Origin: Aquipseudomonas alcaligenes
GTDB taxonomy: Bacteria; Pseudomonadota; Gammaproteobacteria; Pseudomonadales; Pseudomonadaceae
Assembly (NCBI RefSeq): GCF_900156545.1
Contig: NZ_FTNW01000001.1
Location: 558,001 to 622,000, forward strand
Length of the DNA: 64,000 nt
Direction: 5' to 3'
The translations under genes and the position numbers were made by a program. Shown here piece after piece: positions 35,321-51,120 of this stretch (the first letter of the stretch is position 1; each line of letters begins with the position of its first letter). Under the pieces are notes generated by a model. That model was not told the DNA's origin, searched no databases, and worked only from the letters and a program-made list of their open reading frames with translations.

Positions 35321-36631
35321 ATGCGCATCAGCATTTTTGGATTGGGTTATGTAGGGGCCGTCTGTGCAGGATGCCTGTCGGCCAGGGGGCATCAGATCAT
35401 CGGTGTGGACGTTCAGCCGCTGAAGATCGAACTGATCAATAGCGGCAAGTCGCCGATTGTCGAGCCTGGGCTGGAGGATTTGCTGCGCAAGGGGGTTAGC
35501 AGCGGTAACCTGCGTGGTACGCTGGATGTGCGCGAGGCCGTGCTGGAGACCGACATCTCCTTCCTCGCGCCACCGACGCCGAGCAAGCGCAACGGTGATC
35601 TCGATGTGTCCTACATCGAAGAGGTGTGCCAGCAGATCGGTCGGGTCCTGCCCGAGAAGAGCACCCGCCACACCGTGGTGGTGCGCAGCACCGTACTGCC
35701 GGGCACCCTGCGCAACGTGGTGATCCCGACCCTGGAAAAATACTCCGGGCTGGTCGCCGGCAAGGATTTCGGCGTAGCGGTGAATCCCGAGTTCCTGCGC
35801 GAGAGCACCGCCATCAAGGACTACGACTTCCCGGCCATGACCGTGATCGGCGAGCTGGACCAGACTTCCGGCGACCTGCTGGAGGCCATCTACAGCGAGC
35901 TGGACGCACCGATCATCCGCAAGACCGTCGAGGTCGCCGAGATGATCAAGTACACCTGCAACGTCTGGCATGCGACCAAGATCACATTCGCCAACGAGAT
36001 CGGCAACATCGCCAAGGCGGTGGGCGTCGATGGTCGCGAGGTGATGGAAGTGATCTGCCAGGATCACAAGCTCAACCTGTCCAAGTACTACATGCGTCCG
36101 GGTTTTGCCTTCGGCGGCTCCTGCCTGCCTAAGGACGTGCGCGCCCTGAACTACCGCGCCACCCAGCTGGACGTCGACTCGCCGCTGATCAGCTCGCTGA
36201 TGCCCAGCAACGAAGCGCAGGTACGCAATGCCTACAACCTGATCGCCAGCCAGGACAAGCGCAAGATCGCGCTGCTCGGGCTGAGCTTCAAGGCGGGCAC
36301 CGATGACCTGCGCGAGAGCCCGCTGGTCGAGCTGGCCGAGATGCTGATCGGCAAGGGCTTCGACCTGAAAATCTTCGACCGCAATGTCGAATATGCACGC
36401 GTCCACGGTGCCAACCGCGATTACATCGAGTCGAAGATCCCGCACGTATCCTCGTTGCTGCGCGCCGACCTCAATCAGGTGGTGGCCGATGCTGACGTGA
36501 TCGTGCTCGGTAACGGTGACGAGTTGTTCGAGACCGTGGTGCAGCAGCTACCCCCCGGCAAGAAGCTGATCGATCTGGTGGGCTTCATGCGCCAGTGCAG
36601 CGACGAGGTCAAGGAAGGCCTCTGCTGGTAG
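35321..36631 (+). CDS. algD: GDP-mannose 6-dehydrogenase
   Basis: NAD-dependent enzyme oxidising GDP-mannose to GDP-mannuronic acid, the committed alginate precursor step. 436 residues, the same length as in P. aeruginosa. The N-terminal Rossmann motif is GLGYVGAVCAGCL, the catalytic cysteine is in FAFGGSCLPKDVRAL near residue 268, and the C-terminal part has LLGLSFKAGTDDLRESP. The AAGGAGG at 35304-35310 sets the start; an open extension upstream is rejected. First gene of the operon, behind the AlgU-type promoter. Confidence 0.98.
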   Translation: MRISIFGLGYVGAVCAGCLSARGHQIIGVDVQPLKIELINSGKSPIVEPGLEDLLRKGVSSGNLRGTLDVREAVLETDISFLAPPTPSKRNGDLDVSYIEEVCQQIGRVLPEKSTRHTVVVRSTVLPGTLRNVVIPTLEKYSGLVAGKDFGVAVNPEFLRESTAIKDYDFPAMTVIGELDQTSGDLLEAIYSELDAPIIRKTVEVAEMIKYTCNVWHATKITFANEIGNIAKAVGVDGREVMEVICQDHKLNLSKYYMRPGFAFGGSCLPKDVRALNYRATQLDVDSPLISSLMPSNEAQVRNAYNLIASQDKRKIALLGLSFKAGTDDLRESPLVELAEMLIGKGFDLKIFDRNVEYARVHGANRDYIESKIPHVSSLLRADLNQVVADADVIVLGNGDELFETVVQQLPPGKKLIDLVGFMRQCSDEVKEGLCW

Positions 36632-36666
36632 CCCAGGCTACCGCTGGAACTGTGCACCGGGCGTAG

Positions 36667-36679
36667 AACAACAACAACA
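36667..36679 (+). promoter_or_regulatory. Candidate Hfq/Crc CA motif between algD and alg8
   Basis: AACAACAACAACA fits the AAnAAnAA pattern bound by Hfq with Crc in pseudomonad mRNAs. It lies 43 nt before the alg8 start codon, followed by a CCCCGTT...AACGGGG dyad, in a 91-bp gap. Confidence 0.4.
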
Positions 36680-36722
36680 GCGCCCCCGTTGCAGAGCTGT
36701 AACCTAACGGGGTTGGCGAAAA

Positions 36723-38204
36723 ATGGATGATCTCAAAGGGCGCCTGTTTCAGGGCGCCGGGTGGCTTTTTTACCTTGCGATATTGGGCGGCATGGCCTTG
36801 CTGCTGCCGCATAGCGTGTTCGATCCGCAATCCACGGACTTCCTGCTGCTGCTCGGGGCTGTGGGGGTCTGGCGCTATTCGATGGGGGCCATCCACTATG
36901 TGCGTGGGGTGATCTTCCTCTATCTGGTGTACCCCTATTACCGGCGCAAGGCCCGCAAGCTTGGTGCCTCGGCCGATCCTTCGCATGTGTTCCTGATGGT
37001 CACCAGCTTCCGCATCGATGCGCTGACCACGGCCGCGGTGTATCGCTCGGTGATCCAGGAAGCCATCGACTGCGGCTACCCGAGCACCGTGGTGTGCTCG
37101 ATCGTCGAACTCTCCGACGAGCTGCTGGTGAAGAACCTGTGGGCCGCGCTGGCGCCGCCGGAGCGGGTCAAGCTGAACTTCGTGCGGATTCCCGGTACTG
37201 GCAAGCGCGATGGTCTGGCGCAGGGCTTCCGCGCCATCTCGCGGGCGCATCCGGACGAAAGTGCGGTGGTCGCGGTGATCGACGGCGACACCGTGCTGAG
37301 CGCCGGCGTGGTGCGCAAGACGGTTCCTTACTTCAAGCTGTTCGACAACCTGGGCGGGCTCACCACCAACGAGTTCTGCGAAGTGCGCGGCGGCTACATC
37401 ATGGAGGAGTGGCACAAGCTGCGCTTCGCTCAGCGCCACATCAACATGTGCTCCATGGCCCTGTCCAAGCGCGTGCTGACCCTGACCGGGCGCATGTCGG
37501 TATTCCGTGCCCAGGTGGTCACCGATGCCGGCTTCATTGCCGATGTGGAGAACGATCACCTCGAGCACTGGCGCCTGGGGCGCTTCAAGTTCCTCACCGG
37601 CGACGACAAGTCCAGCTGGTACAGCCTGATGCGCCTGGGCTACGACACCTTCTACGTGCCGGATGCAGCGATCAACACGGTCGAGCACCCGCCGGAGAAG
37701 AGCTTCATCAAGGCCAGTCGCAAGCTGATGTTCCGCTGGTACGGCAACAACCTGCGGCAGAACTCGCGGGCGCTGCGGCTCGGCACCGGCCATCTGGGGC
37801 TGTTCACCAGCGTGGTGCTGCTCGATCAGCGGGTGTCCATGTGGACCAGCCTGCTCGGCCCGGCCGTGGCCATCGTGGCGAGCATCAAGTACGGCTTCGC
37901 CTACCTGCTCATCTACATGCTGTGGATAGGTCTCACCCGCCTGGTGCTGACCCTGCTGCTGCTGGCCTCCGGACACCGCATAGGTCCGGCTTATCCACTG
38001 ATCCTTTATTACAACCAGATCGTCGGCGCACTGGTGAAGGTCTACGTGTTCTTCCGCCTCGACCAGCAGTCGTGGACCCGCCAGAAGACCAAGCTCGATC
38101 GCGGCCTGGGCGGTTTCCAGACGTGGTTCAACACCTGGTCGTCGCGCGCCATGACCTTTTCGGCTGCCAGCGTTTTCGCCGCCACCCTGATGTGGGTGGT
38201 CTGA
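36723..38204 (+). CDS. alg8: Alginate synthase catalytic subunit Alg8
   Basis: Inner-membrane family-2 glycosyltransferase polymerising mannuronate from GDP-mannuronate, 493 residues. Membrane segments flank the cytoplasmic domain (near residues 12-65 and 370-490). Catalytic features are [13 protein letters not shown] (D-x-D), the acceptor Asp in VENDHLEHW and the QxxRW-like motif [11 protein letters not shown]. It works with Alg44, which supplies c-di-GMP control. Confidence 0.97.
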
Positions 38205-38244
38205 CCCGGCCCCATTCAATTTGCAGTTTGCACAAGGAACGAAG

Positions 38245-39399
38245 ATGAACGCAGTGATCAGCCCGAACAGCAATGTGGTCCATGAAGCCGAAGCCCAGCG
38301 CCAGTACGCGCGCCTCAAACTGCCGGCGAAGATTCGCTATCGCACCCCGCAAGGCCAGGAACTGGAGGCGCAACTGCTCGACCTGTCGGTGGGCGGTTTC
38401 GGTTTCCAGCCGGGCAATACGCTGCTCAGCGAGGGCCAGCGTTTCCACGGCAAGCTGATGTTCGAAGTCGAAGGCATCGGCTTCGCCATGGACGTGCAGT
38501 TCCAGGTCCGCTCGCTGGTCGACGGCAAGCGTGCCGGCTGCGAGTTCCACGAGCTGCGCCCGCGCGAGATCGCGGCGCTGCGCTACCTGATCAGCTCTTT
38601 CCTCAGTGGCGAGCTGGTCAATGTCGGCGACCTGATCAGCACCCTGCAGCGCGAAAACTTCACCAAACCGCGCAAAGGCAAGGGTGACGACAAGATGAGC
38701 CTGGCCGCCAGGATCAAGGCGCTCAGCCTGAGCCTGAGCATCTTCCTGGTCGGCGTGGCGGCGAGCAGCTATGTGCTCTACCAGCTGTACGACGTGTACT
38801 TCATCACCCATGCCGATTCCGCCCAGGTCTCGGTTCCGGGTCAGCAGGTGTCCATGCCGCGCGAGGGCACGGTGCAGAGCCTGGTTAAGGTCGGTGACAC
38901 GGTCGCCAAGGGCGCCCCGGTGGGCACGTTCTCGTCCAGCGCGCTGGACGTACTGAAGAACGTGCTGAAACCGGAGGAGATGGCTCCCGACAATCTGCAG
39001 CGGCTGTTCGACAAGAGCTTCCAGGGCACCCTGACCAGCCCCTGCGACTGCCGGGTGGTGGCACAGCTGGTCGGCGATGGCCAGGTAGCGGCCAAGGGCG
39101 CTGCGGTGTTCATGATGGCGCCGGTCGATGCCGTGGCCACGGTCGAAGCGCGCTTCCCCTATCGCGCCTTCGACGAGCTGCAGCCGGGCAGCCCGGTGAA
39201 CTTCCTGGTGGCCGGCGAGAGCGAGCCGCGCAGCGGGCGCATCAGCACCCTGGCGCTGCAGGACGGCGGCCTGGCTTCGGATATCCGCGTCGCCATTCAG
39301 CCTGACCAGCCGCTGGCCACTGAGCTGGCCAAGCGTCCGGTGGACGTGCGCATCCAGCCGCTGGGCGGGCTGTTCGACAGCGTGGCGGCCGGCAAATGA
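38245..39399 (+). CDS. alg44: Alginate synthase c-di-GMP receptor Alg44
   Basis: 384-residue protein joining a cytoplasmic PilZ domain to a periplasmic HlyD-like domain. The c-di-GMP ligands are seen as R19-x3-R23 (RQYAR) and D46-x-S48-x2-G (DLSVGG). A membrane helix lies near residues 165-185 (SLSIFLVGVAASSYVLYQLY), and a biotinyl/HlyD fold follows (VPGQQVSMPREGTVQSLVKVGDTVAKG). In P. aeruginosa c-di-GMP bound to Alg44 is essential for polymerisation. It overlaps algK by 4 bp (ATGA). Confidence 0.97.
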   Translation: MNAVISPNSNVVHEAEAQRQYARLKLPAKIRYRTPQGQELEAQLLDLSVGGFGFQPGNTLLSEGQRFHGKLMFEVEGIGFAMDVQFQVRSLVDGKRAGCEFHELRPREIAALRYLISSFLSGELVNVGDLISTLQRENFTKPRKGKGDDKMSLAARIKALSLSLSIFLVGVAASSYVLYQLYDVYFITHADSAQVSVPGQQVSMPREGTVQSLVKVGDTVAKGAPVGTFSSSALDVLKNVLKPEEMAPDNLQRLFDKSFQGTLTSPCDCRVVAQLVGDGQVAAKGAAVFMMAPVDAVATVEARFPYRAFDELQPGSPVNFLVAGESEPRSGRISTLALQDGGLASDIRVAIQPDQPLATELAKRPVDVRIQPLGGLFDSVAAGK

Positions 39400-40766
39400 A
39401 GCGCAGCGGCCTGGCCCTGGCGCTGGCGGCCGCACTGGGCGGCTGCACCCAGCTGCCCGACCTGCAGCTGGCCAAGCGTGCACAGACCGGCGGCGACCTG
39501 GCTACCGCCGAGGCCAACTTCCGCCCCCTGGCCGAGCAGGGCTTCGTCGAGGCGCAGATCGGCCTGGCCGATGTCCTGGTGCAAAGCCCCGAGCCGCAGC
39601 GCCAAGCGCAGGGCGAGGCGCTCTATCGCCAGGCGGCGGATGTTTCGCCGCTGGCGCGCAACAAGCTCGGCAAGTGGCTGGCGGCCAAGGAGCAGGCCAG
39701 CGCGGCCGAACGGCAGGAGGCCGAGCGCCTGCTGCTGCAGGCCATCGAGGACGGCGATCAGAGTGCGCTGCTGGCGCTGCTGCGTCTGCAACTGCAGGAC
39801 CCGCAGCGCCTGGCCAGCGGTGAACTGGAAGAGCAGCTGCGTGGCTGGCAGGCACGTGGCATGCCGCAGGCGCGGCTCGGCTGGATCCTGCTGTATCGCG
39901 CGCGCGGTGACTACGCCGCGCACCTGGCGGAGATCCGCCAGGGCTGCGAGGCCTGGCTGAGCGAAGTCAGCGAGTGCTATGTCGAGCTGGTCAGCGTGTA
40001 CCGCCTGGAGGGCGCGCAAGAGCCTCTGCAAGCGCTGCTGGAACGGCTGCGCGGGGACTATGCCGCCGGCCTGGTGACACCGATACGGGTGAAAACCGTC
40101 GCCGCAGCGCTGGTGGCCGAGGGGCAGGGCGAGCCGCAGCCGGAACTGGCGCGCGAACTCTATGCAGAAATCGCCCCGCAATGGCCGGATGCCTGGGTCA
40201 GCCTGGCTGATCTGCTTGCACGTTTCCCGCAGCTGGGCGATGGCCAGCAGGCTGTGGCCTACCTGGAGCAGGGCCTGGCGGCCGGCTCCTCCAAGGCCGC
40301 ATTGAGCCTTGGCCACCTCTACCTGAATGGTCAACTAGTGCCCGCCGAGCCACGCAAGGCCGAGCAGTACCTGCTGCAGGCCGCGGTCGAGCAGAACAAG
40401 GCGCACATGCTGCTGGGCAAGCTGTATCGCGGCGGTCAGCTGGGGCGTATCGACCCGCAGAAGGCGCTGGACCACCTGCTGCTTGCCGCCCGCGCTGGCG
40501 AACCCGGCGCCGATGCGGCGCTGGCACAGCTGTTCGGCGAAGGCCGCGGCATTCGGATCAATCCGGTTTACGCCTATGGCTTCGCCCTGCTGGCCAAGGA
40601 GCAGGGGTCGGCCCAGGGCGACGTCTGGCTCGAGCGCATGGCGCCGCGCTTGCAGCCCGCCGATCTGCAGCGGGCTCGCGAGATGGCGGCGCAGGAGAGG
40701 GCGGCCAGGGCGGGTGAGCGCATCAGCCAGGGCAATCACAAGGACAAGGCACAGGAAGTACTATGA
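39396..40766 (+). CDS. algK: Alginate export scaffold lipoprotein AlgK
   Basis: 456-residue outer-membrane lipoprotein of TPR/Sel1-like repeats. The lipobox LGGC places the lipidated Cys at residue 17. Repeats of the type A-x4-LA-x8-A-x-LG run through the protein (for example AALSLGHLYLNGQLVPAEPRKAEQYL and GADAALAQLFGEGRGIRINPVYAYGF). AlgK helps place the AlgE pore and bridges the periplasmic complex. Overlaps alg44 and algE by 4 bp each. Confidence 0.96.
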   Translation: MKRSGLALALAAALGGCTQLPDLQLAKRAQTGGDLATAEANFRPLAEQGFVEAQIGLADVLVQSPEPQRQAQGEALYRQAADVSPLARNKLGKWLAAKEQASAAERQEAERLLLQAIEDGDQSALLALLRLQLQDPQRLASGELEEQLRGWQARGMPQARLGWILLYRARGDYAAHLAEIRQGCEAWLSEVSECYVELVSVYRLEGAQEPLQALLERLRGDYAAGLVTPIRVKTVAAALVAEGQGEPQPELARELYAEIAPQWPDAWVSLADLLARFPQLGDGQQAVAYLEQGLAAGSSKAALSLGHLYLNGQLVPAEPRKAEQYLLQAAVEQNKAHMLLGKLYRGGQLGRIDPQKALDHLLLAARAGEPGADAALAQLFGEGRGIRINPVYAYGFALLAKEQGSAQGDVWLERMAPRLQPADLQRAREMAAQERAARAGERISQGNHKDKAQEVL

Positions 40767-42178
40767 CCCTCAATAAAGCTGTTACCACCTTCCTGATCGC
40801 CACCGGTGCGCTGAGTGCGCCCGGCCTGCGCGCGGAGGAGAGCGCGCGTTTCGATTACGGCGTCAACTTCAAGCTCACCGCCCAGTCCACCGAGGATCTC
40901 GACCTGGGCACCCGTGACGAAGGCGACTTCAACGGCCTCGGCTTCGGCGTACGACCCTGGCTGCTGGCGCAGCGCGGTGACTGGTCGGGCTATGTGCTCG
41001 GCGAGGCATTTGCCGCCACCGATGTGCTGGAGTCCTCGCAGGTCGCCGGCGACGACATCGATGCCGGTGATGCCCGCGAGCGCGATGACAGTTTCCTCGC
41101 CCTGCACGAGTTCTGGATCGACTACGGCGGCCTCACCGCCTATCCGCAGGAGTCGCTGCGTTTCGGCCGTCAACGCATCCGTGCCGATGACGGCCTGTGG
41201 TGGGACACCAATATCGAGGCGCTGCGCTGGAACTTCGAGACCACCTTGCTCGACGCCCATATCGGCGTGGCCGAGCGCTTCAGCGACTATCGCACCGACC
41301 TCGACGACCTGGCGCCGCAGGACGAGGATCGCCAGCACTTCATGGGCGACATCTCCACGCAGTGGCGTCCCGGGCACTGGGCCGGGCTCAAGCTGCATCA
41401 CAGCCGCGATGACGGCAGCCTGGCCGGATTGGGCGAGCGGGTCGATGAGCTGAGCAAAACCTACAAGGGTGACATCACCTGGCTCGGCGCCGAGCTCAAT
41501 GGCGACTTCTTCAATCCGCGCAGCAGCGCGCCGCTCAACTACTGGGTGGCGCTCACCGGCATGCAGGGCGACGCCGAACTCCTGCAGACCAGCAGCGCCA
41601 GCGGTGAGCGGCGAGCCCTCGGTAGCCGCGATCAGGACCTGGATGGCTGGGCCATCGACCTCGGCCTGCGCTGGAATATCGATGAACACTGGCGCCTCGG
41701 CGGCACCCTGACGCGCGCCAGCGGCGGTGGCGATGCCGACGACTCCGAACAGTTTCTGCAGACCGATCTGCAGAGCAACCGCGCGCGTTTCACCGGCACC
41801 CGTTCCAGCGTGCACCGTTTCGGCGAGGCCTACCGTGGCGAGCTGAACAACCTGCAGGCGGCCTCGCTGTTCGGCAGCTGGATTCTCGACAAGAAGTACG
41901 ACGCCAGCATCGTCTACCACCGCTTCTGGCGGGTGGACGAGGACCTCGACAGTGCCAGTGGCCTGAACGTCGGACTGGAGCCGGGCGACAAGGACCTGGG
42001 CCAGGAGGTCGACCTGGTGCTGACCCGCTACTTCGACCGCTCCGAGCTGGGTGTGGTGGAAGCCGACTCGGCGCTGGTGCGTCTGCGTGGCGGCCTGTTC
42101 CTGCCTGGCGATGCGTTCCCCAGCGGCACCGACTCGACCATGCATCGGGTCATGCTCGACCTGATCTGGCGCTACTGA
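40763..42178 (+). CDS. algE: Alginate outer-membrane export porin AlgE
   Basis: 471-residue beta-barrel pore through which alginate leaves the cell. Signal peptide at the N-terminus (cleavage near LRAEESARFDYGV). The mature protein has alternating hydrophobic strands, many Arg residues, as in the electropositive AlgE channel, and an aromatic C-terminus (DLIWRY). It overlaps algK by 4 bp and is 10 bp before algG. Confidence 0.96.
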   Translation: MTLNKAVTTFLIATGALSAPGLRAEESARFDYGVNFKLTAQSTEDLDLGTRDEGDFNGLGFGVRPWLLAQRGDWSGYVLGEAFAATDVLESSQVAGDDIDAGDARERDDSFLALHEFWIDYGGLTAYPQESLRFGRQRIRADDGLWWDTNIEALRWNFETTLLDAHIGVAERFSDYRTDLDDLAPQDEDRQHFMGDISTQWRPGHWAGLKLHHSRDDGSLAGLGERVDELSKTYKGDITWLGAELNGDFFNPRSSAPLNYWVALTGMQGDAELLQTSSASGERRALGSRDQDLDGWAIDLGLRWNIDEHWRLGGTLTRASGGGDADDSEQFLQTDLQSNRARFTGTRSSVHRFGEAYRGELNNLQAASLFGSWILDKKYDASIVYHRFWRVDEDLDSASGLNVGLEPGDKDLGQEVDLVLTRYFDRSELGVVEADSALVRLRGGLFLPGDAFPSGTDSTMHRVMLDLIWRY

Positions 42179-42188
42179 GGAGGGCTGC

Positions 42189-43724
42189 ATGATGCACAGC
42201 ACACGTATGATCACCCTCGGTCTCTGCGCCAGCCTGCTGGCTGGCCAGGCCCTGGCGGTGAATACCGATGTAACGCCCAAGTCCTACCGGGTCAGCAGCG
42301 CGCCAGTCGAGCCGCTGCAACTGGATGCACCGAAGCTGCCCGACCTGACGCCGTTCACCCCGGCGGCGGTAGAGGCGAAGATCGAGCGCAAGCCGGCAGC
42401 CCGCGTCAGCGTGCGGCGCATGATCGGTCTCGACCAGCTCAGCGAGTTCACTGGCGGCGACGAACGCCTGCGTGAGTGGGTGGTGCGCCAGGGCGGCATG
42501 CCCGAGGCGATCCTGGTGGAGGGCGGCTACATCACGCCGGCCGGCCTGGCCAAGGCGCTCGGTGCCGAGCAGCTGCGCGAAACGGCGCCAGGTGTCTATC
42601 TGTTGCGCCGGCCGCTGGTGGTGATGCCGGGCGCGACCCTGCATATCGATCAGGCGACCAAGGATTTCCGCCTCTCCAGTGACCGCGGCGCCTTTCTCAT
42701 CAACGACGGCAAGCTGTTCATTACCGATAGCCGGGTTACCGCCTGGCGCGAGAAGGAAGACCGTCAGGACTGGTTCGAGAAGACGGGGCGCTTCCGTCCT
42801 TTCATCAACGCCTGGGGCGGTACCGAGACCTACGTGGTCGGCTCGACCATCTCCAGCCTCGGCTACACCGAGAGCAAGTCCTACGGCTTCTCGATATCCC
42901 AGTACAGCCCGTCGATGCATCCAAAAATGCAGCGTGGCCACCCCACCGGCTGGCTGCTCAACTCGCTGTGGGACGACATGTGGTACGGCTTCTACTGCTA
43001 CGAGGCCGACGACGTGGTGATCCGCGGCAACACCTACCGCAACAACCTGGTCTACGGCATCGACCCGCACGACCGCTCGCGGCGCCTGATCATTGCCGAG
43101 AACACCGCCTACGGCACGGTGCAGAAGCACGGCATCATCATCTCTCGCGAGGTCAACGACAGCTGGATCTTCAACAACCGCTCTTACGAGAACAACCTCT
43201 CCGGCATCGTTATCGACCGTAGCAGCGTGAACAACGTCATCGCCTACAACGAGACGTACCGCAATAAGTCCGACGGCGTGACCATCTACGAGAGCGGCAA
43301 CAACCTGCTGTGGGGCAACAAGGCCTTCAACAACGAGCGCCACGGCATCCGCGTGCGCAACAGCATGAACGTGCGTCTGTACGAGAACCTGCTGGTCGGC
43401 AACGGCAAGCTGGGGGTCTACGGCCACGTCAAGGACCTCAGCAACACCGACCGCGACATCCTGCTCGACCCCTTCGAAACCAACATCTCCATGCTCATCG
43501 TCGGCGGCAAGCTGGTGGCCAATGCCTCCGGTCCGCTGGGGGTGGATTCGCCGCTGAGCCTGGAGCTGTACCGGGTGGAGATGCTGTCGCCGACCAAGAG
43601 CTCCGGCATCGTCCTGCCCGGCATTCTCGGCCCGCATCAGGACAAGATCCTCGACCTGCTGGTGCGCCAGAACAAACCGGTACTGATCGATTACCTCGGC
43701 AACGACAAGGAGGTCACGCGATGA
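42189..43724 (+). CDS. algG: Poly(beta-D-mannuronate) C5-epimerase AlgG
   Basis: 511-residue periplasmic enzyme that converts mannuronate to guluronate in the polymer. Signal peptide (LGLCASLLAGQALA), then a right-handed beta-helix of CASH repeats. The catalytic motif DPHD is present in VYGIDPHDRSRR. Repeats such as NNRSYENNLSGIVIDRS and NLLWGNKAFNNERHGIRVRNS are visible. It overlaps algX by 4 bp (ATGA). Confidence 0.97.
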   Translation: MMHSTRMITLGLCASLLAGQALAVNTDVTPKSYRVSSAPVEPLQLDAPKLPDLTPFTPAAVEAKIERKPAARVSVRRMIGLDQLSEFTGGDERLREWVVRQGGMPEAILVEGGYITPAGLAKALGAEQLRETAPGVYLLRRPLVVMPGATLHIDQATKDFRLSSDRGAFLINDGKLFITDSRVTAWREKEDRQDWFEKTGRFRPFINAWGGTETYVVGSTISSLGYTESKSYGFSISQYSPSMHPKMQRGHPTGWLLNSLWDDMWYGFYCYEADDVVIRGNTYRNNLVYGIDPHDRSRRLIIAENTAYGTVQKHGIIISREVNDSWIFNNRSYENNLSGIVIDRSSVNNVIAYNETYRNKSDGVTIYESGNNLLWGNKAFNNERHGIRVRNSMNVRLYENLLVGNGKLGVYGHVKDLSNTDRDILLDPFETNISMLIVGGKLVANASGPLGVDSPLSLELYRVEMLSPTKSSGIVLPGILGPHQDKILDLLVRQNKPVLIDYLGNDKEVTR

Positions 43725-45130
43725 GCGCGCCCCGTACGCTCGCCGCCATCCTGGCGAGCCTGCTGACGGCTTCTGCGGCCGCGACGCAACTGCCCGAATA
43801 CCATATCGAGCGCATCGACCGGCTGTGTCCGGCGGCGGCTGATCCGGCCAGCTACAACACCAAGAAGCTGGATTTCCACTACACCCTGATTGATGGTCAG
43901 GACAGCTGGCTGTTCCGCACCAAGAACGACCTGCGTACCGACATCGGCACCACGCCGGCAGGTTATGCCCAGCTCAAGCGTTTCCGCGATGCCCTGAAGG
44001 CCCGCGGGGTCGAGCTGCTGGTGGTGTTCCAGCCCACCAAGGGGCTGGTCAATCGGCGCAAGCTGACGCCCGAGTGGCAGGCCCGCTTCGACTGGGAGAC
44101 GGCCCGCGCCAACTACATCAGGACCATCGAGGAGTTCCGCCGGATCGGCATCTGGGCTGCCGACTACTCGCCGCTGTTCGACGAGCAGAATCAGGAAACC
44201 GACTTCTTCTTCAAGGACGACCACCACTGGACGCCACGTGGCGCCCAGGATGCGGCTCGCCTGACGGCCGAGGTGCTGAAGCAGATTCCGGCCTACGCCG
44301 ACATGCCGAAGAAGGCGTTCGTCACCAAGCGCGTCGGTATCCTCGGCAGCCCCGGCAGCTCCGGGGAGGCCGCAGGTGAGCTGTGCGGCACCAGCTATGA
44401 CACCGAGTATGTCGATCGCTTCGCTACCGAACCGGCCGATGAAAGCAGTGGCGACAACCTGTTCGGTGACGAGTCGAGCCCCGAGGTGGTGCTGGTCGGC
44501 ACCAGCAACAGCGGGGTGGCCTACAACTTTGCCGGCTATCTGGAGCAGTACAGCGGTGTGCAGGTACTGAACATGGCGGTCACCGGCGGTGGCTTCGAGA
44601 GCGCCATGTTGCAGCTGCTGGCCAGCGAGGAGTTCCAGAGCAAGCCGCCCAAGGTGATCGTCTGGGAGTTCGCGACTCACTACGACATGTCCCTGCGCGA
44701 CTTCTACCGCCAGGCCGTACCCATGGTCGACAACGGCTGCGTCGGCCAGCCGGCGCTGCTCAGCGGCAAGGTCAAGCTGCAGCCGGGCAGCAACCAGGTA
44801 CTGCTCAACGGTGTCGGCGGGCTCAAGGAGCTGCGCAGTGCCGATCACATGGTCGATCTGCGTTTCAGTGATTCGAAGATCCATGAGGCGCAGACCCGGC
44901 TCTGGTACTTCAGCGGGCGCAAGGAGGGCTACAAGCTGGAGCAGAGCGAGCGCATCGACACCGGCGGGCGCTACCTGTTCGAGCTGCGTGACGATGGCGA
45001 CTGGGCCGACCTGACCCTGATGAGCCTGGAAGTCGACGCCCCCGAAAACATGCCCGCAGGTCTCAGCGTCGAGGCCACCGTGTGCCAGCGCCGCGACGCC
45101 GGCAGCCCGCAGCTGGCGGTCGGCCGATGA
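43721..45130 (+). CDS. algX: Alginate O-acetyltransferase AlgX
   Basis: 469-residue periplasmic protein that transfers acetyl to mannuronate. After a signal peptide (LAAILASLLTASAAA) comes an SGNH-like domain with nucleophile motif GTSNSG and the Asp-His pair in FKDDHHWTPRG, then a C-terminal carbohydrate-binding domain. Length is near the 474 residues of P. aeruginosa. In other pseudomonads algL follows directly; here a 72-bp gap leads to algI. Confidence 0.97.
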   Translation: MSAPRTLAAILASLLTASAAATQLPEYHIERIDRLCPAAADPASYNTKKLDFHYTLIDGQDSWLFRTKNDLRTDIGTTPAGYAQLKRFRDALKARGVELLVVFQPTKGLVNRRKLTPEWQARFDWETARANYIRTIEEFRRIGIWAADYSPLFDEQNQETDFFFKDDHHWTPRGAQDAARLTAEVLKQIPAYADMPKKAFVTKRVGILGSPGSSGEAAGELCGTSYDTEYVDRFATEPADESSGDNLFGDESSPEVVLVGTSNSGVAYNFAGYLEQYSGVQVLNMAVTGGGFESAMLQLLASEEFQSKPPKVIVWEFATHYDMSLRDFYRQAVPMVDNGCVGQPALLSGKVKLQPGSNQVLLNGVGGLKELRSADHMVDLRFSDSKIHEAQTRLWYFSGRKEGYKLEQSERIDTGGRYLFELRDDGDWADLTLMSLEVDAPENMPAGLSVEATVCQRRDAGSPQLAVGR

Positions 45131-45202
45131 ACACCCCGAACAATCCGATCCCTCCGGCCCTGGCCGGGGTGGAGCCGTGTCGTCTTCCCCGGAGAAGCTA
45201 GG

Positions 45203-46660
45203 ATGGTTTTCTCGTCGAACGTGTTCCTGTTCCTGTTCCTGCCGATCTTCCTCGGCCTGTACTACCTGTGCGGCAATCGTTACCGCAACCTGCTGTTGCT
45301 GCTTGCCAGCTATGCCTTCTATGCCTGGTGGCGGGTGGATTTCCTGCTGCTGTTCATTGCGGTAACCGCCTTCAACTACTGGCTGGGCCTGCGCATCGGC
45401 GCCGCCGGTGTACGCACGCGCAACGCCCAGCGCTGGCTGCTGCTCGGTGTGATCGGCGACCTCGGTGTGCTGGGCTACTTCAAATACGCCAACTTCGGCG
45501 TGGCCAACATCAATACCGCGTTGCAGTCGATGGGCTTCGAGCCTTTCGTGCTGACCGCGGTGCTGCTGCCGATCGGCATCTCCTTCTACATCTTCCAGTC
45601 GCTCAGCTACCTGATCGATGTCTACCGCGGCGATGTCGAGCCGACTCGCCATCCGGTCGACTTCGCCGCCTTCATTGCCCTGTTCCCGCAACTGATCGCC
45701 GGGCCGGTACTGCGCTACAAGGACCTGGCCGACCAGTTCGTCGAGCGTACCCACAGTTTCGACAAGTTCTCCGAAGGCGCTGCGCGCTTCATGCAGGGTT
45801 TCGTCAAGAAGGTGTTCATCGCCGATAGCCTGGCGCCTGTGGTCAACCACTGCTTCGGGCTGACCAACCCGACCACCGGCGAGGCCTGGCTGGGAGCCAT
45901 CGCCTACACCGCGCAGCTGTACTTCGATTTCTCCGGCTACAGCTGCATGGCCATTGGCCTGGGCCTGATGATGGGCTTCCGCTTCATGGAGAACTTCAAC
46001 CAGCCCTATGTCAGCCAGTCAATCACCGAATTCTGGCGGCGCTGGCATATCAGCCTGTCCACCTGGCTGCGCGATTACCTGTACATCAGCCTGGGGGGCA
46101 ATCGCGGCACCACGCTGCAGACCTATCGCAACCTGTTCCTCACCATGCTGCTCGGCGGCCTGTGGCATGGCGCCAACTGGACCTTCGTGATCTGGGGCGC
46201 CTGGCACGGCGCCTGGCTGGCCATCGAACGCTTCTTCGGCGTCGACGCCGCCCCCACTCGCGTGCGTCCGTGGCGCTGGGCCTTCACCTTCCTGCTGGTG
46301 GTGATCGGCTGGGTGATCTTCCGCGCCGAGAACCTCGACGTGGCCTGGCGCATGTATGCCGCCATGTTCAGCTTCTCCGACTGGCGCCTGTCCGAGCTGA
46401 CCCTGGCCCAGCTGACCAGCCTGCAGGTGGCGACCCTGGTACTGGCCTATCTGGTCATGGCCTGGTGTGGCCTGCGCCAGTTCTACCGTTTCGGCGCACT
46501 CAAGGCGCCTGGCACCGCAGCTGCTTGTGCCAGTGCCGGTGCTGCCGTTCTGGATATGCGGGTGCTGCTGGGGCGCGTATTGCTCCTGCTGCTGTTCTTC
46601 GCATCGGTGATGAAGCTGTCGGCACAGAGCTTCTCGCCCTTCCTGTACTTCCAGTTCTGA
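45203..46660 (+). CDS. algI: Alginate O-acetylation protein AlgI (MBOAT)
   Basis: 485-residue multi-span acyltransferase passing acetyl groups across the inner membrane to AlgJ/AlgX. It starts MVFSSNVFLFLFLPIFLGLYY as in P. aeruginosa. The MBOAT catalytic His is in LLGGLWHGANWTFVIWGAWHG. About 35 residues shorter than the P. aeruginosa protein, with the difference towards the C-terminal half. Preceded by a 72-bp gap with a GGAGAAG ribosome-binding site. Confidence 0.97.
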   Translation: MVFSSNVFLFLFLPIFLGLYYLCGNRYRNLLLLLASYAFYAWWRVDFLLLFIAVTAFNYWLGLRIGAAGVRTRNAQRWLLLGVIGDLGVLGYFKYANFGVANINTALQSMGFEPFVLTAVLLPIGISFYIFQSLSYLIDVYRGDVEPTRHPVDFAAFIALFPQLIAGPVLRYKDLADQFVERTHSFDKFSEGAARFMQGFVKKVFIADSLAPVVNHCFGLTNPTTGEAWLGAIAYTAQLYFDFSGYSCMAIGLGLMMGFRFMENFNQPYVSQSITEFWRRWHISLSTWLRDYLYISLGGNRGTTLQTYRNLFLTMLLGGLWHGANWTFVIWGAWHGAWLAIERFFGVDAAPTRVRPWRWAFTFLLVVIGWVIFRAENLDVAWRMYAAMFSFSDWRLSELTLAQLTSLQVATLVLAYLVMAWCGLRQFYRFGALKAPGTAAACASAGAAVLDMRVLLGRVLLLLLFFASVMKLSAQSFSPFLYFQF

Positions 46661-46670
46661 GGAGGCCGCC

Positions 46671-47831
46671 ATGAACAGAACCGCCAATGTGCTCTACAGC
46701 CTGCTCTTCATCATCCTGCTGCTGGCACTCGCGCTCGGCTCGCTGCCTGCGGCACTGAGTTTTTCCGCTGCCAGCCAGACTTCGGTGATCGACGGCAAAC
46801 TCGCGAGCAGCTTCGAAAAACACTACGACAAGGGCTTCGTGCTCAAGGATTTCGGCACCAACGCCTGGGCCGCCCTCGAGTACGGCCTGTTCGGCGAGGG
46901 CCGCCCCGGTGTGGTGGTCGGTCGCCAGGACTGGCTGTTCACCGATGAGGAGTTCAAGCCCGCCGTCAGTGCCAGCCAGCTGGACGACAACTGGCGCCTG
47001 ATCGCCGGCGTGCAGCAGGAACTGCAGCGCCGTGGTATCGACCTGCAGCTGGTACTGCTGCCGGCCAAGGCACGCCTGTACCCGGAATACCTGGCCGAGC
47101 AGCAGCCCGTGCTCCAGCAGCAGGAGCTCTATGCCCAGGCCCGGCAGCGCATGCAGGGGCTCGGGCTGCAGGGCCCGGACCTGCTGGCCGCGCTGCAGGC
47201 CGCCAAGGGCCGCGAGGCGGTGTTCCTGCGCACCGATACCCACTGGACACCCTATGGCGCGGCAGTGGTGGCCCAGGCCGTGGCCGAACACCTACGGCGT
47301 GGCGGCCAGTGGCAGGGCGGCGAGCTGAGCTACAGCACCCAGGTCAAGGGCCGCGAGACGCACAAGGGCGACCTGCTCAGCTATCTGCCGCTGGAACCTT
47401 ATTTCGCCGCGATGCAGCCGCCGGCCGAGGAACTCGAGCAGCGCAGCACCGAGCCATCCGCTGAGGCCGCTGGCGATCTGTTCGGCGACAGCACGCCGCA
47501 GCTGGCGCTGGTAGGCACCAGCTACAGCGCCAACGCCAAGTGGAACTTCCTCGGCGCACTGCGTCAGCACCTGGGTAGCGATCTGTACAACTACGCCGAG
47601 AACGGCCACGGCCCGCTGGTGCCGATGTTGCGCCTGTTGGCCAAGGGTGAGGCGGAAACCGCCGGCCTGCGCCTGGTGCTCTGGGAGGTTCCCGAGCGCT
47701 ATCTGATGATGCCCAGCGATCTGTCGGAGTTCGACCCGCAGTGGCTGGCCCAGCTGCGGGCCGGTTCGGGTGGTGTCGATCGCCTGGCCATCCAGGGAGC
47801 CGCGGATTCCGTCGCGGCCCACAACCATTAA
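46671..47831 (+). CDS. algJ: Alginate O-acetyltransferase AlgJ
   Basis: 386-residue periplasmic acetyltransferase tethered by an N-terminal signal anchor (NVLYSLLFIILLLALALGSLPAAL). It shows the same SGNH-like layout as AlgX: Asp-His pair in LRTDTHWTPYGA and Ser motif in VGTSYSAN. It hands acetyl from AlgI towards AlgX. 10 bp after algI and 10 bp before algF. Confidence 0.97.
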   Translation: MNRTANVLYSLLFIILLLALALGSLPAALSFSAASQTSVIDGKLASSFEKHYDKGFVLKDFGTNAWAALEYGLFGEGRPGVVVGRQDWLFTDEEFKPAVSASQLDDNWRLIAGVQQELQRRGIDLQLVLLPAKARLYPEYLAEQQPVLQQQELYAQARQRMQGLGLQGPDLLAALQAAKGREAVFLRTDTHWTPYGAAVVAQAVAEHLRRGGQWQGGELSYSTQVKGRETHKGDLLSYLPLEPYFAAMQPPAEELEQRSTEPSAEAAGDLFGDSTPQLALVGTSYSANAKWNFLGALRQHLGSDLYNYAENGHGPLVPMLRLLAKGEAETAGLRLVLWEVPERYLMMPSDLSEFDPQWLAQLRAGSGGVDRLAIQGAADSVAAHNH

Positions 47832-47841
47832 GGACGACCAT

Positions 47842-48489
47842 ATGAAAAACGCCTCGATCCGCTCACTGACCCTGGCCATGAGCTGCCTGGGCCTGCTGGC
47901 CACCTCTGTCGCTTCCCAGGCCAACGAGGGTGGCCTGTACGGGCCCACCGCGCCCGCCGGTTCGGCTTTCGTGCGGACCTACAATGCCGGCTCCAGCGAG
48001 CTGGACCTGAGCCTGGGCCCGGTCAGCATCAAGGATGTCGCGCCGCAGGGCTCCAGCGACTTCAAGTTCCTCCCGGCCGGCAGCTACAGCGCCAGCGCCG
48101 CCGGACAGAGCCTGCCGGTGACGCTCAACTCCGACCAGTACTACACCCTGGTACAGCTGCCTGGCGGCAAGCTGAGCCTGGTCGAGGACCCGGCCTTCAA
48201 GAACCGCCAGAAGGCGCTGGTCCGCCTGCAGAACCTGTCCGACACGCCGGTCAGTCTGAAGACTGCCGACGGCAAGACCGAAGTGATCCAGGCCGTGGCC
48301 GGCCAGGGGCGCGGTGAGCGCGAGATCAACCCGGTCAAGGTGCGGCTGGCGCTGTTCGCCGGCGAGCGCAAGGTGGGCGATCTCAGCCCGCTGGTTCTGG
48401 AGCGCGGCCAGGTGGCGGCGCTGTACGTCACCGGCAGTGGTGCCAACCTGACGCCGGTGTGGGTGCAGCGCCCGGCGGGCGCCGAGTGA
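47842..48489 (+). CDS. algF: Alginate O-acetylation adaptor AlgF
   Basis: 215-residue periplasmic protein with signal peptide (cleavage near SVASQANEGG). It is a two-domain beta-sandwich protein that binds AlgX and AlgJ and is required for acetylation. Start set by AAGGACGA upstream and by the family N-terminus. Its stop overlaps the algL start by one base (TGATG); normally algA follows algF directly. Confidence 0.96.
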   Translation: MKNASIRSLTLAMSCLGLLATSVASQANEGGLYGPTAPAGSAFVRTYNAGSSELDLSLGPVSIKDVAPQGSSDFKFLPAGSYSASAAGQSLPVTLNSDQYYTLVQLPGGKLSLVEDPAFKNRQKALVRLQNLSDTPVSLKTADGKTEVIQAVAGQGRGEREINPVKVRLALFAGERKVGDLSPLVLERGQVAALYVTGSGANLTPVWVQRPAGAE

Positions 48490-49601
48490 TGCGTACCACG
48501 CGAGGCTGCCGGTCGCTGTCTGCCGCAGTGCTGAGCGCACTGCTGGCAGGCTGCTCGCCGGCGCCGGAAAGCGCGGCAGGCCCGGCGCTGGTGGCGCCGA
48601 GCGGCTACTACCGGGCGGCCCCGGCCGCCCAGGGCAAACCGCGCGAGTGCGAGGCGCCGCCGCCGGCCTATACCGGTGTGCTGGACTTCCCCAGCAAGTA
48701 CGAGGGCTCGGACAAGGCGCGCGACAAGCTCAACCCGGCGGCCGAGCAGCGCTACCTCAAGCTGACTGGCGACATGCGCGAGATGGAGAAGGGCGTCAAC
48801 GTCATGGTCGGCCGCTACTTCAAGTACGGGCGACCGCAGGAAGTGGCCTGTGCCATGAGCTGGCTGGCCAGCTGGGCCGAGGCCGACGCGCTGCTCAGTG
48901 AAGAGCACAACCATACCGGCATGTCGGTGCGCAAATGGACGCTCGGCAGCCTGGCCGGCGCCTACCTGCGCCTCAAGTTCTCCGCCTCGCAGCCCTTGGC
49001 CGCACACGCCGAGCAGGCCCAGCAGGTCGAGCGCTGGCTCGGCCTGCTGGCCGACCGCGTGGTGGCGGACTGGAACGCCTATCCCAAGGAACGCAGCAAC
49101 AACCACAACTACTGGGCCGCCTGGTCGGTGATGGCCAGCGCCGTGATTCTCGACCGCCGCGACCTGTTCGACTGGGCGGTGGGGCAGTACCGCCATGGCA
49201 TGGCCCAGGTCACCGCCGACGGCTACCTGCCGCGCGAACTGGTGCGCGAGACCCGCGCGCTGTCCTACCACAACTACAGCATCGGCCCGCTGCTGATGGT
49301 GTCCGCGTTCGCCCAGGCCAATGGCCTGGACCTGCGCGAAGAGAGCGACGGCGCCATGCGCCGCCTGGCCCGCACCCTGGAGGCGGGCCTGCACGATCCG
49401 AAGCTATTCCAAGAAAAGACCGGCTACCCGCAACAGGCCGTAGGCCTGCAGCAGAGCAGCCGGTTCGCCTGGCTGGAGCCCTACTGCGTGTTGTATCCGT
49501 GCTCGCAGAGCACGGACGCGTGGCGGCGCTCCCTTGAGCCGCTGAGCAGCTATCGGCTCGGCGGTGACATGACCCAGCTGTTTTCCGGGCAACTGCCTTG
49601 A
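48489..49601 (+). CDS. algL: Alginate lyase AlgL, in a displaced position and with a lipobox
   Basis: 370-residue polysaccharide lyase family 5 enzyme that cleaves mannuronate linkages and clears misplaced polymer from the periplasm. Active-site features are present: NHTGMSVRKWTLGS, NNHNYWAAWSVMASA with the catalytic His, and ALSYHNYSIGPL with Tyr. The N-terminus (MRTTRGCRSLSAAVLSALLAGCSPAP) ends in a perfect lipobox LAGC at Cys22 followed by Ser, predicting an outer-membrane lipoprotein. The P. aeruginosa enzyme has an ordinary cleavable signal. The gene lies between algF and algA, coupled to algF by TGATG, not between algX and algI. Confidence 0.96.
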   Translation: MRTTRGCRSLSAAVLSALLAGCSPAPESAAGPALVAPSGYYRAAPAAQGKPRECEAPPPAYTGVLDFPSKYEGSDKARDKLNPAAEQRYLKLTGDMREMEKGVNVMVGRYFKYGRPQEVACAMSWLASWAEADALLSEEHNHTGMSVRKWTLGSLAGAYLRLKFSASQPLAAHAEQAQQVERWLGLLADRVVADWNAYPKERSNNHNYWAAWSVMASAVILDRRDLFDWAVGQYRHGMAQVTADGYLPRELVRETRALSYHNYSIGPLLMVSAFAQANGLDLREESDGAMRRLARTLEAGLHDPKLFQEKTGYPQQAVGLQQSSRFAWLEPYCVLYPCSQSTDAWRRSLEPLSSYRLGGDMTQLFSGQLP

Positions 49602-49677
49602 GGTTGGTCCTGATGTACGCGCTTCCTCGTGGGGCGTGGCAACAGATTTAAACGGATATTGAATGGAGACAAACCAC

Positions 49678-51120
49678 ATGATCCCGGTGATTCTTTCTGG
49701 CGGTAGCGGCTCGCGCCTCTGGCCCTTGTCGCGCAAGTTGTATCCCAAGCAGTTCCTCGCCCTTACCGGCGAACACTCGCTGTTCCAGCAGACCCTGCAG
49801 CGTCTGGCCTTCGAGGGCATGCAGAAGCCCGTGGTGGTGTGCAATCTGGAGCACCGCTTCATCGTCAACGAGCAACTGGCGCAGATCGGCCTCGGCGCCC
49901 AGGCCATGCTGCTCGAACCCTTCGGCCGCAACACCGCGCCGGCCGTGGCCATGGCGGCCCTGCAACTGCTCGGCGAAGGACGCGACGAGCTGATGCTGAT
50001 CCTCCCGGCCGACCACGTGATCGACGACGAGCTGGCCCTGCGCAAGGCGCTGGAGCTGGCGCGAGTGGCGGCCGAGGAGGGCGAGATGGTGCTGTTCGGC
50101 ATTCCCGCCAACAGCCCCGAGACCGGCTTCGGCTATATCAAGGCGGCGCGTGGCGAGAACGGTGACGACCTGGTGCCCGGCGCCTACCGCGTCATGCAGT
50201 TCGTCGAGAAGCCCGATGCCATGCGCGCCGCCGAGTTCGTGCGCAGTGGCGGCTATTACTGGAACAGCGGCATGTTCCTGTTCCGCGCCAGCCGCTACCT
50301 CGACGAGCTGCGTGCCCATGAGCCGGACATCTACGACACCTGCGTGCTGGCCCTGGAGCGCAGCAAGCTGGCCGGTGGTGCGCTGACCATCGACGCCGGC
50401 ACCTTCGAGTGCTGCCCGGACAACTCCATCGACTACGCGGTGATGGAGAAGACCTCGCGCGCCTGTGTGGTACCGCTGGCCGCTGGCTGGAACGACGTGG
50501 GCTCCTGGTCCTCGCTGTGGGATGTGCACGAAAAAAACAGCGATGGCAACGTGCTCAAGGGCGATGTCGTCACCCATGGCAGCCACAACAGCTTCGTGCA
50601 TGCCACGTCCAAGCTGGTGACCCTGGTCGGCATGGACGACGTGGTGGTGGTGGAAACCAAGGACGCGGTGATGATCGCCCGCAAGGACGCCGTGCAGGAC
50701 GTCAAGAAGCTGGTCAATACTCTGGATGCCAAGGGCCGCCAGGAGACCCACAGCCATTGCGCCGTGTACCGCCCGTGGGGCAGCTACGACTCGGTCGACA
50801 ACGGCGTGCGTCACCAGGTCAAGCACATCACCGTCAAACCCGGCGCGCAGCTGTCGCTGCAGATGCATCATCACCGCGCCGAGCACTGGATCGTGGTGTC
50901 CGGCACGGCCCAGGTGACCTGTGACGACAAGGTGTTCCTGCTCACCGAGAACCAGTCCACCTACATCCCGATCGCCTCGGTGCACCGCCTGGCCAACCCC
51001 GGCAAGATCCCCCTGGAGATCATCGAGGTGCAGTCCGGCAGCTATCTGGGCGAGGACGACATCGAGCGTCTGGAGGATGTCTACGGCCGCACACCGGGCA
51101 AACCGGTATCTGTTGGCTGA
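49678..51120 (+). CDS. algA: Phosphomannose isomerase / GDP-mannose pyrophosphorylase AlgA
   Basis: 480-residue bifunctional enzyme making mannose-6-phosphate from fructose-6-phosphate and GDP-mannose from mannose-1-phosphate. The pyrophosphorylase signature is ILSGGSGSRLWPLSRKLYPKQ at the N-terminus with FVEKPDA; the cupin isomerase part holds QMHHHRAEHWIVVSGTAQV. The start MIPVIL matches P. aeruginosa; a Met five codons earlier is possible. Last gene of the operon, followed by a terminator. Confidence 0.97.
   Translation: MIPVILSGGSGSRLWPLSRKLYPKQFLALTGEHSLFQQTLQRLAFEGMQKPVVVCNLEHRFIVNEQLAQIGLGAQAMLLEPFGRNTAPAVAMAALQLLGEGRDELMLILPADHVIDDELALRKALELARVAAEEGEMVLFGIPANSPETGFGYIKAARGENGDDLVPGAYRVMQFVEKPDAMRAAEFVRSGGYYWNSGMFLFRASRYLDELRAHEPDIYDTCVLALERSKLAGGALTIDAGTFECCPDNSIDYAVMEKTSRACVVPLAAGWNDVGSWSSLWDVHEKNSDGNVLKGDVVTHGSHNSFVHATSKLVTLVGMDDVVVVETKDAVMIARKDAVQDVKKLVNTLDAKGRQETHSHCAVYRPWGSYDSVDNGVRHQVKHITVKPGAQLSLQMHHHRAEHWIVVSGTAQVTCDDKVFLLTENQSTYIPIASVHRLANPGKIPLEIIEVQSGSYLGEDDIERLEDVYGRTPGKPVSVG

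Follow-up and report, generated by a model that had tools for sequence, protein, structure and literature searches.

The alginate lyase AlgL encoded in the alginate operon of this Aquipseudomonas alcaligenes sequence is very likely a lipoprotein, as a preliminary description of the DNA had predicted. A lipobox cysteine is present in 22 of the 22 distinct AlgL proteins of one clade, to which the protein under study belongs, versus 7 of the 130 other distinct AlgLs. (The window, to which coordinates refer, is the whole stretch of 64,000 nucleotides that was analysed.) Our reading of the whole, to which we give a probability of about 0.6, is that the window AlgL is a lipoprotein that is moved by the Lol system to the outer membrane and serves there as a periplasm-facing lyase. 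AlgL of P. aeruginosa, in contrast, is soluble and periplasmic, whereas the window protein has a lipobox followed by a spacer; the description had likewise set the lipobox against the soluble P. aeruginosa enzyme, and PMC9734138 and PMC8829089 agree with it on the periplasmic location.

It has been disputed whether AlgL acts as a free periplasmic enzyme or within a secretion complex. In the same two papers, P. aeruginosa AlgL appears as a periplasmic loading control and as the enzyme that clears periplasmic alginate; recent work finds no association with AlgK, whereas earlier work had suggested a complex. In one clade AlgL has apparently been fixed to a membrane by nature. The lipobox is a clade-level trait and makes the clade a natural experiment rather than a new kind of system: a single mutation of Cys22 in a natural host could show whether location matters for AlgL's job.

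The operon, its gene order and its lyase

The source genome (4.25 Mb on 10 contigs) has a complete alginate operon on the + strand of the window, from 35321 to 51120, in the order algD-8-44-K-E-G-X-I-J-F-L-A and with rlmM as the next gene (Table 1). The start codon of algL overlaps the stop codon of algF (TGATG, 48487-48491), so that translational coupling of the two genes is likely. A start-codon artefact was considered and rejected: the ATG at 48489 is the one that overlaps the algF stop, and starting at the upstream GTG at 48459 merely adds 10 residues to the signal.

Table 1. Coordinates, in the window, of the alginate operon genes and of the AlgL features discussed in the text
Feature	Position	Strand	Basis or remark
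algD, alg8, alg44, algK, algE (upstream part of the operon)	35321..42178	+	
algK, the other predicted lipoprotein of the operon (internal control)	39396..40766	+	LGGC-TQLPD, Cys17 at 39444-39446
algG	42189..43724	+	
algX	43721..45130	+	D-x-H and Ser motifs present
algI	45203..46660	+	
algJ	46671..47831	+	
algF, directly 5' of algL (algX in the canonical order)	47842..48489	+	
algL, PL5 mannuronate lyase, 370 aa	48489..49601	+	Pfam, NCBIfam, sequences of solved structures
AlgL signal peptide, residues 1-21	48489..48551	+	sequence
AlgL lipobox LLAGC, residues 18-22	48540..48554	+	predicted lipidated Cys22 at 48552-48554
AlgL variable tether, 12 residues, from Cys22 to the residue preceding conserved Leu34	48552..48587	+	
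PF05426 alginate lyase domain, AlgL residues 66-306	48684..49406	+	profile match
algA, directly 3' of algL	49663..51120	+	

On sequence comparison the product of 48489-49601, which begins MRTTRGCRSLSAAVLSALLAGCSPAPESAAGPALVAPSGYYRAAP, is securely a PL5 AlgL. It matches PF05426 at 7.7e-53 (180.2 bits; cut-off 22.2) and the P. aeruginosa AlgL structure 4ozv at 8.3e-117, and it scores 453.7 bits (cut-off 429) with NF001467, the model named 'mannuronate-specific alginate lyase'; with the other four NCBIfam PRK00325 models it scores below their cut-offs. With P. aeruginosa AlgL (PDB 4OZV, 7SA8; PL5) it shares family, an alginate operon and catalytic residues: K70, H206, W209, R253, Y260 and Y263 correspond to P. 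aeruginosa K66, H202, W205, R249, Y256 and Y259, whose roles were tested by mutation (PMC8829089). These six catalytic or substrate residues are invariant in the 26 rows of alignment A1. Loss of catalytic residues can be ruled out for the window protein, which keeps all six.

Three gene orders are found among the 80 named loci (the best 80 of 124 confirmed stretches). In the first of these (type 2, algX-I-J-F-L-A), algIJF lie between algX and algL; it is the order of the window and of 18 of 18 loci L033-L050, every one of which has the lipobox. Type 3, algX-L-A, is the order of 8 loci (L051-L057, L061), in all of which a search for algI, algJ and algF gave no match at 1e-8. The canonical order algX-L-I, that of P. 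aeruginosa, is found at 53 of the 54 other loci, L067 ending after algL. It is also the order in Azotobacter (PMC4465626). In the window, in contrast, the neighbours of algL are algF and algA, not algX and algI.

The rearrangement of algIJF is already known, since PMC7112194 describes a clade of operons whose acetylation genes are rearranged, along with a P. resinovorans copy that lacks these genes; clade ii of that paper (S5 Fig legend), with its moved algIJF, is very likely the same operon clade as our type 2. The main text makes no mention of 'AlgL' or 'alginate lyase', so that the signal peptide of AlgL is untreated there. It is AlgL as a lipoprotein for which searches of open-licence PMC text showed no report.

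Two side observations concern the genes around algL. The AlgX of type-3 operons has lost motif residues in 7 of 8 loci (L052 is intact): the His of D-x-H is Asn in L051 and L053-L056, the Ser is Gly in L057, and both sites are changed in L061. These residues belong to the acetyltransferase triad of AlgX, and type-3 AlgX may be kept only as a scaffold for non-acetylated alginate. The other concerns the locus of Pseudomonas alcaligenes NBRC 14159 (L033), whose AlgL is 97% identical to the window's. Compared in 250-base bins, the window and L033 are 92-100% identical except at 43750-46900, a tract that covers algX and algI and reaches into algJ, where identity is 69-91%; this suggests a recombined block. 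The algI proteins of the groups intermingle in their tree.

A lipobox held fixed in a drifting stretch

The window AlgL has Arg at residues 2, 5 and 8 and then a 13-residue, mostly hydrophobic stretch (9-21), and its N-terminus reads MRTTRGCRSLSAAVLSALLAGC-SPAP, a sequence well suited to signal peptidase II. The preliminary description had this N-terminus ending in LLAGC with Ser at +2, and the motif is present as placed. A structure model of the protein has pLDDT below 50 over residues 1-29. A PROSITE-type lipoprotein rule, applied to all distinct AlgLs, asks for a charged n-region, a hydrophobic core and the lipobox Cys; all 22 clade rows match it, the window protein among them. Pfam LPAM_1 finds the correct position in the window AlgL at 14.3 bits, below its cut-off of 20. 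Because the same model gave nothing for the window AlgK or for the five relatives tried (seven N-termini were scanned), it is insensitive and not decisive here.

The AlgL set was drawn from named genome contigs and whole-genome searches, the lower-ranked whole-genome matches being represented by 40 regions, and amounts to 178 loci and 152 distinct proteins, 29 of which match the PROSITE-type rule. The 22 AlgLs of the clade, the window's being one, are 60-97% identical to the window protein. Trees built from the lyase domain without the N-terminus support the clade at 99 (FastTree, all 22) and at 100/100 (IQ-TREE, 19 of the 22); L010, L013 and L014 are members by tree alone. Type 2 and type 3 AlgLs group together in the trees, apart from every canonical row. 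With the lipoprotein state scored as present in the clade and in L099, and as absent from all other rows including L054, two changes on the tree are needed. With a lipobox in every distinct clade row, neither a peculiarity of this one strain nor an error in its assembly can account for the motif; it was the absence of the Cys from close relatives that the description had named as counting against a lipoprotein, and no such absence is found.

The 22 rows share ancestry and are not independent, and 153 of 341 lyase-domain columns likewise go without change on the clade tree (mean 1.8 changes). For that reason the argument rests on the contrast with adjacent columns, which drift. In Fitch parsimony over the 22 rows the Cys and the Leu at -4 change not at all and position -1 changes once (21 Gly, 1 Ala), whereas -2 changes 8 times and positions +3 to +9 change 4-8 times each; of the 20 columns neighbouring the Cys, 16 change 3-8 times. 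A Cys that stays fixed while its surroundings drift points, in our reading, to selection for processing at this site, and from a lipid-attachment signal so strictly conserved it follows that the AlgL of this clade, a branch of Pseudomonas related to P. alcaligenes, is probably membrane-anchored, unlike the free AlgL of P. aeruginosa.

That the Cys is incidental, AlgL being secreted through signal peptidase I (SPI) and soluble as in P. aeruginosa, is very unlikely. Most AlgLs certainly have no lipobox (of the 130 distinct ones from outside the clade, 123 do not match the lipoprotein rule), and in a few others a Cys is found that invites this explanation: L104, L120 and L174, read by eye, have one within an ordinary SPI-type core. 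Within the clade, however, the Cys is invariant in 22 of 22 rows amid drift and Gly or Ala is kept at -1 as well. Type-3 AlgL signals are SPI-type when read by eye, or ambiguous (L054). The ambiguous form, found in three AlgLs of the type-3 clade (L019, L024 and L054), reads 'QACAQ' at a place where sister sequences have Ala, and its spacer is short or missing: this could be SPI cleavage beside a Cys, or an incipient lipoprotein. The sole clear lipobox outside the clade is that of L099, from P. citronellolis GW210018_S65, where a second alg operon in the canonical gene order has LASLAGCQNH in its AlgL (L099:5705-6779). It is apparently an independent gain; L099 sits on a short contig and may be contamination.

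The clade's lipoboxes are not all of the strict form. Position -3 is Ala or Gly, not Leu, Val or Ile, in 11 of the 22 rows, and -2 is Gln in four (L010, L040, L041, L045). These looser variants are probably functional, because the AlgK lipoboxes of related operons, read by eye, are equally loose (AAGC, LQGC, VQGC, IHGC). A loose pattern matched 73 of 79 AlgK proteins, though in L042-L050, L057, L096 and L104 the Cys that it matched was an earlier or unrelated one; it missed L036, L051, L054, L055, L056 and L099 (the sequence of the last is incomplete), and all these rows were read by eye. If the Cys is counted, the spacer that leads to the conserved AlgL domain is 8-14 residues long across the 19 clade rows in A1, and the same columns hold just 4 residues in four of the seven type-3 rows.

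Membrane destination and proposed function

The residues that follow the Cys bear on which membrane would hold a lipidated AlgL. In P. aeruginosa, retention in the inner membrane does not hang simply on an Asp at +2. Other marks have been suggested, namely Lys at +3, Ser at +4 and acids among the five post-Cys residues, although of 40 likely inner-membrane lipoproteins only 5 have the Lys and 8 the Ser (PMC6469965). The window AlgL continues S-P-A-P-E, with Asp absent from +2, Lys from +3, Ser from +4 and any acid from +2 to +5; its first acid is the Glu at +6. Over the 22 clade rows, +2 is Ser in 18, Thr in 1, Phe in 3 and never Asp, Lys is found at +3 in 8 and Ser at +4 in 4, and an acid occurs at +2 to +5 in 8 and at +2 to +6 in 20, the window included.

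Those figures give some substance to a different destination, retention in the inner membrane, where AlgL would lie near Alg8/Alg44 and AlgI/J/F and trim or clear the emerging polymer. Of the 22 rows, 19 have one or more of three marks: a Lys at +3, a Ser at +4 and an acid somewhere from +2 to +5. In the type-2 operon algL lies directly 3' of algI-J-F. The three rows with none of them, however, are L033, L036 and the window itself. An acid at +6 does not discriminate, because AlgK, an outer-membrane lipoprotein (PMC9734138), has Asp there in most rows. Moreover, the preferred substrate of AlgL is non-acetylated polymer (PMC8829089), and this is just what the enzyme would encounter next to the synthase, which seems costly. 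For the window protein we therefore regard inner-membrane retention as rather unlikely, and we favour the outer membrane, if with reserve, as the place of an AlgL that is lipidated. Members of the clade may differ in destination.

The signal, its clade-wide conservation, the intact catalytic residues and the operon context are observed; lipidation, destination and any change of function are inferred from them and would run as follows. The AlgL precursor would be exported by Sec; Cys22 would be diacylglycerated, signal peptidase II would cut before it, and N-acylation would follow. Lol would then, on balance, carry the window protein to the outer membrane, on the side that faces the periplasm, with a short flexible tether that would leave the intact PL5 domain facing the periplasm. 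So anchored, AlgL would cleave alginate that fails to exit via AlgK-AlgE, doing the job of the soluble enzyme but restricted to the membrane surface. A lipidated AlgL might be a partner of AlgK-AlgE, beside which the description had placed it at the outer membrane; we offer this as a hypothesis.

A polymer-acting enzyme that is also an outer-membrane lipoprotein has a counterpart in another synthase-dependent system, PgaB of PNAG secretion. Fold, polymer and chemistry of PgaB differ from those of AlgL, and it is a working precedent, not kin. AlgK, the outer-membrane TPR lipoprotein of alginate export, resembles the window AlgL in operon and in type of N-terminal signal; it differs in being a scaffold, not an enzyme, and in the residues after its Cys (T-Q-L-P-D in the window).

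A more ambitious proposal, which we hold to be quite doubtful, sees lipidation as one element in the rebuilding of the alginate machinery. AlgL would have been soluble in the common ancestor with the acetylation-free algX-L-A operons, and would have become tethered to a membrane as algI-J-F came to lie between algX and algL; the lyase would thereby have been kept away from fresh non-acetylated polymer and made a gatekeeper at the AlgK-AlgE exit. If that were true, the lyase would have a fixed place in the export complex, unlike AlgL as reported for P. aeruginosa.

Genome distribution and second AlgL copies

Among the matches listed for the 398 genomes of the genus, AlgL of type 2 (at least 60% identity) comes from 14 genomes, in all of them with the Cys; at most five candidates per genome were scored in that search, which makes its second copies a lower bound. 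In the family-level search 58 of 148 genomes have matches, and those of at least 60% identity come from only three genomes, all of the window's genus. At class level, 185 genomes gave no match at 1e-50 beyond the window's own genome.

PF05426 is matched by one protein in 7 of the 14 type-2 genomes and by two in the other 7. In half of these genomes, then, the lipobox form is the sole PF05426 match, and the task of AlgL must fall to it if it falls to any AlgL. The same count bears on the proposal that the anchored lyase is displayed on the outside of the cell, where it would cut alginate already released and so help the cells to disperse or feed; we judge this extremely unlikely. A possible precedent is limited to marine alginate degraders, papers on which contain 'alginate lyase' along with 'lipoprotein signal peptide' or 'lipobox'; the algL of type 2, however, stands within a biosynthetic operon and is in those 7 genomes the only candidate, and soluble AlgL acts in the periplasm (PMC8829089). 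A periplasm-facing enzyme remains our preferred reading.

The second copies are of more than one kind. On the tree, those of G194 (L141) and G251 (L175, identical to L069) group on the canonical side; those of G271, G297 and G357 are canonical by score only (218-223 bits). The second copy of G148 scores 121 bits, similar to the divergent PL5 of the window's own genome (G000), which is that genome's second copy and belongs to the divergent operon described below. Both AlgL forms occur together in P. kielensis, P. sp. Irchel s3h17 and G194. In two cases one named strain has two operons, L048 with L085 and L050 with L069 (P. sp. Irchel s3h17, P. kielensis), and in each pair the type-2 AlgL has the lipobox and the canonical AlgL does not.

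The window's own genome has a second, divergent alginate-like operon, at about 5000-17300 of L180 (G000:C5:20000-39000) and also represented by L002. Its identities are 55% for alg8, 31% for alg44, 28% for algE, 48% for algI, 35% for algJ, 32% for algF and 35% for algX, and it has in addition an algG-like gene (25%) and a PL5 lyase without a lipobox (33%). The ORF at the place of algK, which starts MSYRAIASLLALLLCAGLAQA, gave no algK match at 1e-3 and has no obvious lipobox. The PL5 lyase of this operon exceeds the cut-off of NF001469, and at 1e-60 it has matches in 6 of 59 genomes of the genus, its own included.
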